Source of the DNA: Bacteroidota bacterium
Lineage (GTDB): Bacteria > Bacteroidota > Ignavibacteria > Kryptoniales > JAKASW01
NCBI GenBank assembly: GCA_021845665.1
Contig: JAJZVO010000020.1
Coordinates: 1-64,000 of the forward strand
Direction of reading: 5' to 3'
Length of the DNA stretch: 64,000 bases
Within the stretch, counting starts at the first letter, position 1. Each line of letters begins with the position of its first letter. The notes beneath the pieces are model-generated. The model was not told the origin of the DNA. It worked only from the letters and a program-made list of their open reading frames with translations, and made no database searches. Shown in pieces: positions 1,574 through 36,297 of the stretch. Position numbers and translations under genes: made by a program.

Positions 1574-2839
1574 TCAGGCCGTAGCCTGCTTCCTCTTGGT
1601 AAGGAAGAGGGGCTCTGCACCGGAAGAGATAACATCCTCGGTTATCACACATTTCGAGATATCGGAACGCGAGGGAAGGTTGTACATGATATCGAGCATT
1701 TTCTCCTCGATGATGGATCTGAGACCGCGGGCACCGGTTCCGCGTTCAACGGCCTTGCCAACGATCGCCTTAAGCGCCTCGTCATCGAAGTCGAGTTCGA
1801 CCTCCTCGAGCTTGAAGAGTTTCTTATACTGCTTCACCAACGCGTTCTTGGGAAGTGTCAATATGTCTTTCATCGCTTCTTCGCTTAAGGTGTGAAGCGT
1901 CGCCACAACTGGAAGTCTCCCAATGAACTCCGGGATGAGACCGAACTTGAGGAGATCGTCCGGCTGCACAAGAGGGAGGATTTCGCTGACCGCTTCATCC
2001 CTTACGGAGTGGATCTCCGCGCCGAAGCCGATCGGATTTTTGCTGACCCGCCTCGAAATAATCTTCTCAATGCCCTCGAACGCTCCCCCGCAGATAAAAA
2101 GTATATTCCGCGTGTTCACGTTTATGAGAGGCTGCTCGGGGTGCTTCCTTCCACCGCGCGGAGGAACTCCGGCCGTTGTTCCCTCAAGTATCTTTAGAAG
2201 AGCTTGCTGGACTCCCTCACCCGACACATCGCGCGTAATAGAAGGCGTATCGCTCTTTCTCGCAATCTTGTCGATCTCGTCCACATAGACTATTCCCCTC
2301 TCGGCACGCGCAACGTCGTAATCGGTGTTCTGGAGAAGGTGAACCAGTATAGTCTCCACGTCATCCCCAACGTAGCCGGCCTCCGTTAGAGTTGTGGCGT
2401 CGGCAATAGCGAAAGGGACGTTGAGTATCTTGGCGAGAGTCTGTGCGAGGAGCGTCTTCCCGGTGCCGGTCGGACCGATCAGGAGGATGTTGCTCTTTTC
2501 AATCTCGGTTTCATCTTCGGCGCCGAGTCCGTGCGGAAGCGAAATTCTCTTGTAGTGATTGTAAACCGCCACCGAAAGGGTCTTCTTTGCATGCTCCTGC
2601 CCGATCACATATTCGTCAAGTGCGGACTTGATCTCTACGGGTGTCAAAGGCGCCTTCTCGGAATAGTCCTCAGAATGCTGTTTGTAGGCCGGGATGTTGC
2701 TTCTGAGAATTTCTACCGAGTGTTCGACACAGATGTCGCAGATGTAGACATCCCCCGGTCCGGCCACAAGACTCTTGACTTCCTTCGCTTCACGTCCGCA
2801 GAAGGAGCATCGCATCTCCTCTTGATGCTGTTTACTCAT
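1574..2839 (-). CDS. clpX: ClpX, ATP-dependent unfoldase of ClpXP
   Basis: A 421-aa AAA+ unfoldase that recognises tagged substrates and feeds them into ClpP in the cytoplasm. The N-terminal zinc-binding domain has Cys11, Cys14, Cys34 and Cys37. Walker A GPTGTGKT lies at 122-129 and Walker B (VYVDEID) at about 184-190. The C-terminal sensor-2 region contains the GTGARGLRS motif. Length is normal. It lies downstream of clpP and tig on the same strand, the classical tig-clpP-clpX order, but is separated from clpP by 153 bp that hold a possible 39-aa membrane ORF. Housekeeping copy, no lesions seen. Confidence 0.98.
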
Positions 2840-2845
2840 TAACTT

Positions 2846-2965
2846 CTAATATTCCTTTTTGATATTCTTTTGTCGTTGATTTTTCAGGTCTGCGATCACT
2901 GTGGGAATTGAAATCGCAAACAAGACAATGAAGACGAGCAGAACAAGCAATAGCAAACTGCCCAT
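2846..2965 (-). CDS. possible 39-aa single-pass membrane microprotein between clpP and clpX
   Basis: The ATG at 2965 opens a 39-codon frame ending in TAG at 2846. The product begins MGSLLLLVLLVF, has a hydrophobic helix at about residues 4-25, and ends in a charged basic tail (KNQRQKNIKKEY). This is the layout of small bacterial single-transmembrane proteins with a cytoplasmic tail. It fills most of the clpP-clpX gap, stops 6 bases before the clpX start, and the clpX ribosome-binding region lies in its end. Its own Shine-Dalgarno is weak (only GGAG about 16 bases upstream), which is the main doubt. A role with ClpXP or the membrane is only inference from position. Confidence 0.5.
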   Translation of the reverse strand: MGSLLLLVLLVFIVLFAISIPTVIADLKNQRQKNIKKEY

Positions 2966-2992
2966 ATAGTTCGTTTAGACTCCGAATTGGTT

Positions 2993-3664
2993 TCACTTCT
3001 TTTTAGCTTCTCTTTTTATGAGAACGTTATCAATCACACCGTATTTTACCGCCTCCTCAGCAGACATAAAATAGTCCCTGTCCGTGTCTCTTTCAATTTG
3101 AAGGAGATCCTTACCGGAATGGTGTGACAGGATTTCGTTCAATCGCTTCTTGGTTTTAATTACCTCCTCTGCCTGGATGCTAATGTCGGCAGCGGTTCCC
3201 TGAAAGCCGCCCCAGGGCTGATGTATCATGATTCTTGCATTCGGGAGCGAAGTCCTCTTGCCTGAGGCTCCGCCTGCCAGAAGGACTGCGCCCATGCTTG
3301 CCGCGAGTCCAACACAGGTAGTGGCAATGTTGGGCCTGACGTACTGCATCGTATCGTAGACCGCAAGACCAGCAGAGACGCTACCCCCAGGGGTGTTGAT
3401 GTAGATATTAATGTCTTTGTTTGGATCTTCGCTTTCGAGAAACAAAAGCTGGGCGATCACTAGACTTGCAACCGTATCGTCTATAGCGGTTCCAATAAAA
3501 ATAATCCTCTCTCTGAGCAGCCTGGAGTAGATGTCGTAAGCTCTTTCCCCCCGGCCTGTCTGTTCGATGACATATGGTATCGTCAGCTGGTTATAGATTT
3601 CGAATCTCGGTTTCTCGGCCATGCCGCCTTCGGGAAGGCTAACGTTTGGGTTATCTACTAACAT
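2993..3664 (-). CDS. clpP: ClpP, serine protease subunit of ClpXP
   Basis: A 223-aa peptidase subunit that forms the 14-mer degradation chamber with ClpX. The catalytic triad is visible: Ser123 in AASMGA, His148 in IMIHQP and Asp197 in DTDRDYF. The His-Asp distance of 49 residues equals that of E. coli ClpP. The N-terminus is about 15-25 residues longer than most ClpP proteins; an internal Met at residue 15 (MAEKPR) is an alternative start and the extension may be a propeptide. It lies 3 bp downstream of tig, so the two are probably one transcript. Confidence 0.98.
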
Positions 3665-19501: not shown

Positions 19502-19683
19502 ATTACGATTCTAAATTATGAATTTTGAATTCTCAATTGGAATGATTCAAAGCATTTGTAATTCGGCGGACAGGAGAGAACAGTCTGCACCTGAACGGCT
19601 CGATGAAGTTATTTCGAGCCGCGCTGAAGTGCAACATCAAGGGAAAGTTTTTGCGAGCGAAATCCCTTCGGATATTTCCGATG

Positions 19684-33403: not shown

Positions 33404-33444
33404 TTAGCTACAAGTACATTCTCACACCAACACGGAAAGTATGA

Positions 33445-34644
33445 ATTGAGCATGGAGATCGAATAGCCGCCACCGGTTCGCTCACGATGCCGAAGTCCGT
33501 CTCCGCGAACGGATTGGGAGGTATATCCGGCTCCATCCTTTCCGACGACCCCGTTGCGGTGATGGACAATCCCGGACAGCTCGGAGCCTTCAGCGTGAAC
33601 AATTACTTCTCGGCTTCAGCCTACGCGCCGCGGGTCAACTGGCTGCCCGGAGTTTCTTGACCGGCTCTCACCTTAAACAGCAATGCATTCAACGCCGGCT
33701 TGGAGTTCAGTAATTATCTCGATCTCCCATTTAAAGCTGGCATTGGAGTAGGTTATTCCGGTTACCGCCTTCGTGACGGGACCTCCGAACAGGGGTCGAA
33801 GGACGTTGCTATCGGGCTCGGTATCGATTACTTCGTCAGGTTTGGGTTCGGATATACATTCAGGTCGTTGACCTCCACTGTCCCTGGAGCAAATCCGCAG
33901 AGCCCATCCTCACCTCCCGTAATGCACAATGCCAAATTGCCCGCGGACAATTTGGGCGCGATCTTCGAGATTCCGGTTGTCGGCATGATCTCGAAGTTAA
34001 ACAATCGGTCGGTACAGATAGGGGACGGCATTCGTCCCATGTTCGATATTACGGTCGGGGCATCGGATAAAAATATCGGCGATGAAGTTAATTACTCTAA
34101 TGCGGACCAGGCTCTACCTCTTCCGCGTCAATCGGTGCTCGGGTGGAGCCTTCGAGGTGGAGTGGAGACGCTGCAGGAGGGACATGACTGGCATTTGCTT
34201 ACACTTACCCGGGCAAGAGAAGCAAGCGACATTCTTGCGACTCAGACCGTCTTGACAGCGGGAACGACAGCAGTTTACTCGTTCGGCTACGAGAAGGGTT
34301 TCGGGATAATACAGCCGCTCGAAAATCTCGTCCTGGGCAAAACGAACGGGCAGATAACATTGGGCAGGGGATGGGAGATAGACGCGGCCGACTTGCTTTA
34401 TCTGCGCTGGGGATCCGATACCGGGCCCGGTGAGCTGATTTATTCCACTTCCGGCTGGAGCGTTAAACTTGACGGGATGCTCAGGCTGCTTACCACCGGA
34501 AGGATCATTCCGCCGGGAACGCCGGTCATCGAATTTCTCACGAACCATCTCGACCTGGAATACTCGTTCGCGAAGTACTACAGCAGCGTGAACCAGGGAA
34601 TCGACTGGACCAAATTCAGCTCGCTAACGCTGGTGGTGAGATAA
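33445..34644 (+). pseudogene. decayed tandem paralogue of the PorV-like barrel gene
   Basis: The reading frame from about 33445 aligns with the upstream gene from its mature N-terminus (SVSANGLGGISGS against SVEGNGMGGIAAS; DNPGQLGAFS against SNPAQLGVFS; SASAYAPRVNWLP against SASTYAPKTDWLP) to the end (WTKFSSLTLVVR against GTKFSSLNIVFR). It lacks a signal peptide (a TGA at 33442-33444 precedes the frame) and has an in-frame TGA at 33658-33660, where the paralogue reads on. The piece from ATG 33700 to 34644 (314 aa) is intact but has no signal. This is a tandem duplication whose second copy has lost function, unless the stop is a sequencing error. Confidence 0.75.
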
Positions 34645-34727: not shown

Positions 34728-34853
34728 CAGGAAGGATTTATGCAATGCAAGCAAACATTATGCAGCCATAAGCATGCGTTGCGCGTTGGCAAGCAAGGCC
34801 TTTGCATTCCAAAGCAAGCTTGTTTCAGGGGTAAGCATGTATTCTGCACTTCT
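34728..34853. repeat. 21-bp phased tandem array (AAGCA units)
   Basis: AAGCA occurs at 34749, 34770, 34791, 34812 and 34833, exactly every 21 bases. Each unit also carries a TGCA/TTGC-like word near position 12-16, and a weaker unit precedes at 34728. The rest of each unit is diverged. Because 21 is a multiple of three, heptapeptide periodicity appears on both strands (Lys-Gln/His every seventh residue on plus, Cys every seventh on minus), but neither frame has a convincing start, so I treat it as a DNA-level repeat. Two helical turns per unit would place the AAGCA sites on one face of the DNA. Confidence 0.7.
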
Positions 34854-34959
34854 GGCTGGCGGAAACACCCCTGTAACTGATTCAATGAGCTCCGTTGGGA
34901 GCGGTCTGTTAGCCGTGAAAAGAGTCGAGGCTTGTTGTGGGGGGATGGCAAGAAGGTAA

Positions 34960-34988
34960 CCTTGTCAAGGTTTCAATCCTTGACAAGG
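34960..34988. terminator. bidirectional terminator hairpin
   Basis: Perfect 11-bp inverted repeat CCTTGTCAAGG-TTTCAAT-CCTTGACAAGG, 14 bases from the DUF1015 stop, between convergent genes. No long T-run on either side. Confidence 0.6.
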
Positions 34989-35001
34989 CCTGAGCCTGTT
35001 G

Positions 35002-36297
35002 TTATTCCAGTCCGCTGAGGAGCAAACCCGAGAGAAGCTTCGGATAAAAATACGTCGACTTCTGCGGCATGACAGCCTTCGCGTCAGCGACTTCCTTCAC
35101 CTGCTCCACCTTAGTCGGGTTGAGTATGAAACCGAGCTGTCCCTTCCCGGCTTGCACTGCCGCATCGACTTCGTGCATGTCGATGGTATAATTGATGTTC
35201 AACTTCTTCTCCTGGGCCTCTTTCGAAATGCCAAGCGTCTGCGTCAACACGTAATCGTGGAGCAGCGTGACGTCCAGCCTCTTAACAGGCGCCGGAACGT
35301 TCTCCTTGACGATCGAGAGCACATCGGAGCCGGACTTAAGCTTCATCAGATAGTACTTCTTTTCGGGGAGTATCAAGCCGTACGCGTGGTCGCCCGCCGT
35401 CAGCAGCGACGCTGCCAGGGAATGGACATCGGACTTACCCACGAAATCAAAGTGGGTCTTCACCTCGCTTATCATCTTATTTGTGTCGAAGCCCGCGATG
35501 CTATGAAGTATCCTGTGCGTCGGGTAAACGACGAGTCCGGAATCGAAGATGTTCGTGAAGTACATCATTATATAATTGTAAGCTTCTTTGCCCGTGTGTT
35601 TCGGGTTCTTCGCCTTCATTTGCTTCTGGTACTCGAGCGCAGTCTCATATCTATGATGACCGTCTGCGATGTAAACAGGCATATTCTTGAAAAGATCCTG
35701 GAACAGTTTCAGCGTCGTGGCGTCGGTGATGCGATATATCTTGTTGTTCACACCGTCCTGGTCCGCTTCGAGGAACGGCTTCGTCTTCGCGAGCCTGTCG
35801 TATTCCTTCTCCAGCTTCTTGCCGGGATCGCCGTAAAGACTGAATATCTGGCTGAACGACGCCTTCGTAGCCGTCATTAGTTTCAGCCTGTCCATCTTCG
35901 GCCCGGACAGAGTATGTTCGTGCGGCAGAACGACGCCCGCTTCGAAAGGCTCGAGCTTTATCCACGAGATGAACCCGCGTCGGGTAACCGTCTTGCCGTC
36001 CCGGGACTTGTCCGAAGAATCCTTCAGAGATGTTTGCAGGCAGGGATAAATTGCCGGCTCGCTGTCGACGACGAGCGCCTTTACCTTCAGCATTCGCTGC
36101 AACTCCTTCGCTGCTTCCGGGTATGGATCGGCGGCGGGATTAAGGTCGAGTCTTATGATGTTGTTTGGATCCCTGTCGAACAGTTCTTTTTGCTGTACCT
36201 TGTTTATCACATCGTAAGGGGGCGCGACGACTTTCGAAAGATTCTTAACTACTTCGGTATTGTAATGAATTGCCTTGAAAGGTTGGATTTCAGCCAT
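35002..36297 (-). CDS. DUF1015 family protein
   Basis: A 431-aa protein matching DUF1015 from the first residues (IQPFKAIHYN, then VVAPPYDVI) through HEHTLSGPKMDRLKLM, the ADGHHRYETALEYQ motif and PTHRILH. The AP-PYDV and GHHRYE motifs recall the ParB/Srx-like nucleotide-binding fold, and several enzymes of that superfamily are small-molecule kinases; any kinase role here is inference. The gene is often linked to serine biosynthesis in other genomes, but not here. It is followed (36333) by era on the same strand. Confidence 0.88.
   Translation of the reverse strand: MAEIQPFKAIHYNTEVVKNLSKVVAPPYDVINKVQQKELFDRDPNNIIRLDLNPAADPYPEAAKELQRMLKVKALVVDSEPAIYPCLQTSLKDSSDKSRDGKTVTRRGFISWIKLEPFEAGVVLPHEHTLSGPKMDRLKLMTATKASFSQIFSLYGDPGKKLEKEYDRLAKTKPFLEADQDGVNNKIYRITDATTLKLFQDLFKNMPVYIADGHHRYETALEYQKQMKAKNPKHTGKEAYNYIMMYFTNIFDSGLVVYPTHRILHSIAGFDTNKMISEVKTHFDFVGKSDVHSLAASLLTAGDHAYGLILPEKKYYLMKLKSGSDVLSIVKENVPAPVKRLDVTLLHDYVLTQTLGISKEAQEKKLNINYTIDMHEVDAAVQAGKGQLGFILNPTKVEQVKEVADAKAVMPQKSTYFYPKLLSGLLLSGLE

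Follow-up and report, generated by a model that had tools for sequence, protein, structure and literature searches.

A five-unit 21-bp repeat array in a Bacteroidota genome and its probable membership of an array class tied to PQLLE-family genes

The window analysed here is a 64,000-nucleotide stretch of a Bacteroidota bacterium genome (GenBank assembly GCA_021845665.1, contig JAJZVO010000020.1, positions 1 to 64,000), in which an array of short direct repeats occupies an intergenic position between the 3′ ends of the second copy of a barrel gene and of a convergent DUF1015 gene. The features of this site, with the evidence for each and with reference to an orthologous site in another genome of the genus (G012), are as follows:

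33700..34644, + strand: second copy of the barrel-like gene, with an open frame of 314 aa, a neighbour outside the system (open frame and relatives)
34728..34748, + strand: partial leading unit, without AAGCA and with TGCA shifted by 1 bp (sequence; the G012 ortholog has a 1-bp indel here)
34749..34853, + strand: five-unit array of 21-bp units, each starting with AAGCA and with a second, TGCA-like box further on, at positions 13-16 of the unit (sequence, run-length simulation, and consensus fit on the + strand only)
34749..34769, + strand: unit 1, AAGCAAACATTATGCAGCCAT (unit table)
34770..34790, + strand: unit 2, AAGCATGCGTTGCGCGTTGGC (same letters in G012)
34791..34811, + strand: unit 3, AAGCAAGGCCTTTGCATTCCA (G012 has 147 bp, or 7 units, extra within the alignment of this unit)
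34812..34832, + strand: unit 4, AAGCAAGCTTGTTTCAGGGGT (unit table)
34833..34853, + strand: unit 5, the final one, AAGCATGTATTCTGCACTTCT (unit table)
34854..35001, no strand: stretch up to the DUF1015 gene, without a PQLLE-type gene; its G012 counterpart holds a HicA-type toxin gene and, ahead of it, a small ORF (comparison with G012)
35002..36297, − strand: DUF1015 gene, convergent neighbour and synteny anchor (Pfam, E 2.8e-83)

The word AAGCA starts at 34749, 34770, 34791, 34812 and 34833, at a spacing of exactly 21 bp throughout, just as a preliminary description of this DNA had reported. The longest run of an equal 5-mer at any fixed spacing of 10-60 bp was five in the window, as compared to three in each of 12 first-order Markov simulations of it. 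The array has only five true units, since the block at 34728-34748 fits only partly and the block past 34853 not at all; these five, at exactly 21 bp each, lie within the 20-22 bp period range of the array class described below. The statement that most other positions have diverged is correct, except that a weaker TGCA-like word at unit positions 13-16 has been retained besides AAGCA.

The second barrel copy (33408-34644) has an open frame of 314 aa that begins no earlier than 33700, as compared to one of 451 aa in G012, and its start looks broken; the barrel gene's match to PorV scores under the cut-off. The preliminary description noted that the array sits beside this duplicated gene. Among the relatives checked, most carry barrel copies here but no array; the barrel gene was rejected as the array partner, and its presence beside the window array looks incidental. 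The actual partner is the PQLLE protein family (NCBIfam NF052641), although no PQLLE-type gene is present in the window or at the G012 site. In G012 the orthologous array (L035, G012:C136) is followed by a HicA-type toxin gene preceded by a small ORF, both of which are absent from the window. With no PQLLE gene beside it, the window copy is an orphan, classed by its motif rather than by its context; it has either lost its PQLLE gene or never had one, and it may be inactive.

Further arrays, which the preliminary description had left to a search of the genome and its relatives, were found in both, just upstream of PQLLE genes. An exact search of this genome for a three-word AAGCA pattern revealed one further array, on contig 94, and the same pattern read backwards gave no match in this genome; a four-word pattern with up to 2 mismatches matched in 6 of the 13 genus genomes. 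At the same barrel/DUF1015 junction, the G012 ortholog has 12 units versus 5 in the window. At a second locus (G000 C94, G003 C175 and G012 C62) the arrays can be aligned unit by unit across three species. Between species, indels within arrays are 21, 42 or 147 bp long (multiples of 21), as opposed to mostly 1-4 bp in the flanks, and aligned differences fall at 11 of 135 sites inside the 5-bp word versus 69 of 432 elsewhere in the unit, a modest excess of conservation in the word. A PQLLE gene lies downstream of the arrays at C94 (where it lacks the N-terminus), C175, C62 and C141, and a gene for a weakly related helical protein downstream of those at G007 C35, G007 C3 and G010 C23.

The linkage was also assessed in reverse, by choosing loci by protein family with no repeat word in the selection. 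The 50 PQLLE-type loci thus obtained are family matches from the genus and phylum searches, sub-threshold matches included, and the family membership of most of the latter is supported by their own arrays; the proteins linked to arrays belong to NF052641 or are sub-threshold relatives of it. At 44 of the 50 loci, 21 or 42 bp was the best upstream period of those compared; many of the loci have a genus in common, so that the counts are not independent. Such an array was absent from all 69 genes of a control set taken without selection from the window and from 40 kb of a G012 contig. These 69 replaced an earlier control set of 118 genes with 7 positives, because all 7 were on contigs chosen for holding repeats. 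The six exceptions are:

L200: a false match, which we take to be the flagellar protein FlgK
L209: N-masked stretch
L194: contig end, 164 bp
L188 and the AT-rich L210: best period 41 bp
L211: plain negative

Beyond these searches, PQLLE-linked arrays are present in two named isolates, Perlabentimonas gracilis and Sunxiuqinia dokdonensis; two Sunxiuqinia genes (L247, L249) have 20-bp arrays, and at a weak family relative (L250) the array is 3′ of the gene rather than upstream. In genomes of the class Anaerolineae arrays were found at 16 of 20 loci, one of them (L259) with a 43-bp period; the remaining four are two gene fragments (L264, L271) and two genes with only 352 bp (L262) and 9 bp (L269) of upstream sequence. 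The array class is thus tied to the PQLLE family in at least two phyla. Unusual periods (41, 43 or mixed 21/22 bp) beside PQLLE-type genes were seen at L188 and L210 (both in G384), at the Anaerolineae locus L259 and at L184 (Paludibacter). An orphan array in S. dokdonensis (L079, 493-702) fits the PQLLE consensus and lies 20 bp before a gene for a PAS-domain protein that is not PQLLE; since orphan arrays exist, the PQLLE partner gene need not adjoin the array.

Despite strong degeneracy of the individual units, a common motif could be derived. The consensus of 29 class-A arrays, each entered in one rotation, is an oriented 21-bp unit, AGSAA-N6-TGYA-N-C, with an objective of 1.62 versus a mean of 0.86 and a maximum of 0.95 in 60 column-permuted nulls (class A and subfamily B are labels set in this analysis). 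A consensus learned without Anaerolineae, from the arrays of the window's phylum and the named Bacteroidota, scored the Anaerolineae arrays at 18.4, as compared to a null of 10.6 ± 0.7 (maximum of 200, 12.7) and to 10.3 on the reverse strand. As the PQLLE proteins of these two groups are just 31-49% identical, the motif would have been erased unless held by constraint. Subfamily B has a consensus different from that of class A (1.49 versus a null maximum of 1.15), array-motif similarity rises with protein similarity, and more strongly so on the same strand (Mantel 0/300), and where one genome has several PQLLE genes the array words differ among them, following protein subfamily.

The window array scored 1.84 against a consensus built without its genus (null mean 0.84; reached by 3 of 2000 permutations; reverse 0.87), and its G012 ortholog 2.45 (0 of 2000 permutations). 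The consensus was not matched by two arrays of class A from this genus (G012 C115 and G005 C358). Overall, the window array very probably belongs to the PQLLE-associated class. This also refines the earlier view that phase and word are what is kept: phase is indeed kept, and AAGCA proved to be one form of a two-box motif, other arrays having a different word but the same period of 20-22 bp.

The two boxes are spaced by 11 bp and then by 10 bp, about one box per helical turn, and the periods of 20, 21 and 43 bp are all close to two helical turns. Of the protein-binding array proposed in the preliminary description, the two-turn period has stood, while binding by a protein is what we infer. On top of the demonstrated existence, period, gene linkage, orientation and common motif of the arrays, we consider it about even (probability roughly 0.5) that they represent a family of helically phased protein-binding arrays accompanying PQLLE genes. 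A typical array would comprise about 5-30 helically phased direct repeats of 20-22 bp each, and a unit of the main subfamily would present AGSA and TGYA boxes on one strand, 11 bp apart, with the next first box some 10 bp further on. All boxes would then fall on one face of the duplex, about one per turn, where successive turns could be bound side by side by a sequence-specific protein, the likeliest candidate being the helical PQLLE protein encoded next to the array. An extended nucleoprotein complex might thus be assembled upstream of the binder's own gene, in the manner of operator or iteron arrays. The strong degeneracy of the units, the two class-A arrays outside the consensus, the 3′ array at L250 and the orphan arrays count against this reading.

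The choice of PQLLE as the putative binder is based on a code that tracks the protein subfamily, on a period that tracks the helix rather than codons, and on the basic Lys/Ala-rich tail that terminates several class-A PQLLE proteins. Binding by PQLLE seems to us slightly short of an even proposition. We word it this cautiously because no recognised DNA-binding domain was found in the family (Pfam, NCBIfam), and because a single-sequence structure prediction of a family protein reached a mean pLDDT of only 54 and was not used. PHROGs and PADLOC gave no significant match either, and a search with the L137 protein yielded nothing of use. A phage or plasmid origin was rejected, since PQLLE was matched neither in phages nor in plasmids nor in viral contigs.

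If not PQLLE itself, a host-wide DNA-binding factor might read the arrays, the PQLLE genes then being just the regulon that it controls through multi-site operators. Such a factor could account for the orphan arrays that precede other genes, like the PAS gene of Sunxiuqinia (L079) and the HicA-type toxin gene of G012. On the other hand, a single factor is inadequate to explain array words that differ among PQLLE genes of one genome in line with protein subfamily, and we regard this alternative as unlikely. We give about the same low credence to the arrays acting as RNA, whether in the form of a transcribed leader or of processed RNAs of 21/42 nt to which PQLLE would bind, in a loosely TIGR-like fashion. 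The location upstream of the gene on the same strand, the oriented motif and the 42-bp alternating units of some arrays would all be compatible with it, and the L216 array does fold better than its column-shuffled copies (z −4.4). Most arrays, however, fold no better than such copies, pairing between the two boxes is almost nil (0.503 versus 0.490 ± 0.007), no Rfam match was obtained up to E 1, unit order is kept between species rather than hypervariable, and an RNA would not need a box spacing of one helical turn. In TIGR-Tas systems, arrays with two strict 8-12 nt repeats and 9-nt spacers are found upstream and/or downstream of the gene for a Nop-domain protein (PMC12045711). The PQLLE arrays resemble them in lying beside a single protein gene and in some alternation of two unit types, but differ in their 20-22 bp units, degenerate boxes and upstream position; no Nop-domain match was obtained in Pfam or NCBIfam for the array-linked proteins.

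Two further readings appear highly improbable. The arrays could encode a small protein of heptapeptide repeats, 21 bp being equal to seven codons: the frame is open in some arrays, substitutions at C94/C175/C62 are skewed to one codon phase (36 versus 16 versus 18), and the array at G005 C348 lies within a 301-aa open frame. Yet in 13 of 40 array cores every one of the six frames is closed by stops, no frame survives a period of 20 or 43 bp, and at the C175 ortholog the favoured frame is interrupted by a stop. Coding is thereby refuted for the class as a whole, which answers the question of coding versus intergenic repeats raised in the preliminary description. Neutral minisatellites, generated by slippage or unequal crossing-over without selection, would explain the variation of unit number by whole units and the near-perfect repeats in some arrays, and the orphan window copy could be a decaying relic of that kind. 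They would hardly explain the exact register kept by diverged neighbours, the association with a single gene family in two phyla, or an oriented motif common to proteins just 31-49% identical. Bacterial VNTR or minisatellite promoter repeats are near-identical tracts; the PQLLE arrays share with them a unit number that varies between species, but have units that diverge while register and motif persist across phyla. Selected intrinsic curvature was rejected, the arrays not exceeding column-permuted arrays of the same period (z 0.22 ± 0.17).

As putative protein-binding arrays, those of the PQLLE-associated class invite comparison with two established architectures. Iterons of plasmid and phage origins are direct repeats about 19-22 bp (two helical turns) apart, often located by the gene of their binder, with the sites facing one side of the DNA. 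The PQLLE arrays are alike in being direct repeats at a two-turn spacing, but iterons are fewer and much more uniform. Among the Pfam/NCBIfam matches of array-linked proteins there was no replication initiator, and no origin, plasmid or phage relative was found. Centromeres of the parC/parS-like type are short direct-repeat arrays beside the gene of the binding protein. The PQLLE loci differ from such partition sites in being chromosomal and several per genome, and no ParA, ParM or TubZ partner was seen in the PQLLE neighbourhoods inspected.

The NF052641 entry gives only the name of the protein, and we found no paper mentioning this name, nor any description of the arrays or of their association with PQLLE, in the literature searched (which covered few subscription papers or preprints). 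The tie to an upstream DNA architecture across phyla provides a first functional clue for this named but uncharacterised family, predicts sequence-specific, helically phased binding, and accounts for recurrent degenerate repeat arrays that annotation can take for small repeat proteins. Tentatively, and at somewhat longer odds than for the binding itself, we may be dealing with an undescribed chromosomal DNA-protein system of at least two phyla, in which each protein of the helical family would have its own upstream array with a subfamily-specific code and form a nucleoprotein filament on it. If the protein does read the array, the pairing would represent a new class of protein-DNA recognition, for which many natural pairs of protein and site could be compared.

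Some repeats were encountered in other settings. At L240 (G005:C348) a 21-bp array at about 1896-2333 lies within the 301-aa open frame (1514-2419, − strand; repeat EAxxxxx), which adjoins an IS200-like Y1_Tnp gene at 871-1329. At L237 (G010:C49) an orphan array (1756-2056) is 360 bp off a gene with a Y1_Tnp domain (2419-3036, − strand). The closeness of these two arrays to Y1_Tnp transposases may be due to chance. The window also contains 7-bp tandem repeats (ATTCTGA, CCAAGCT), a different type of repeat, at 19508, 37257 and 61260.
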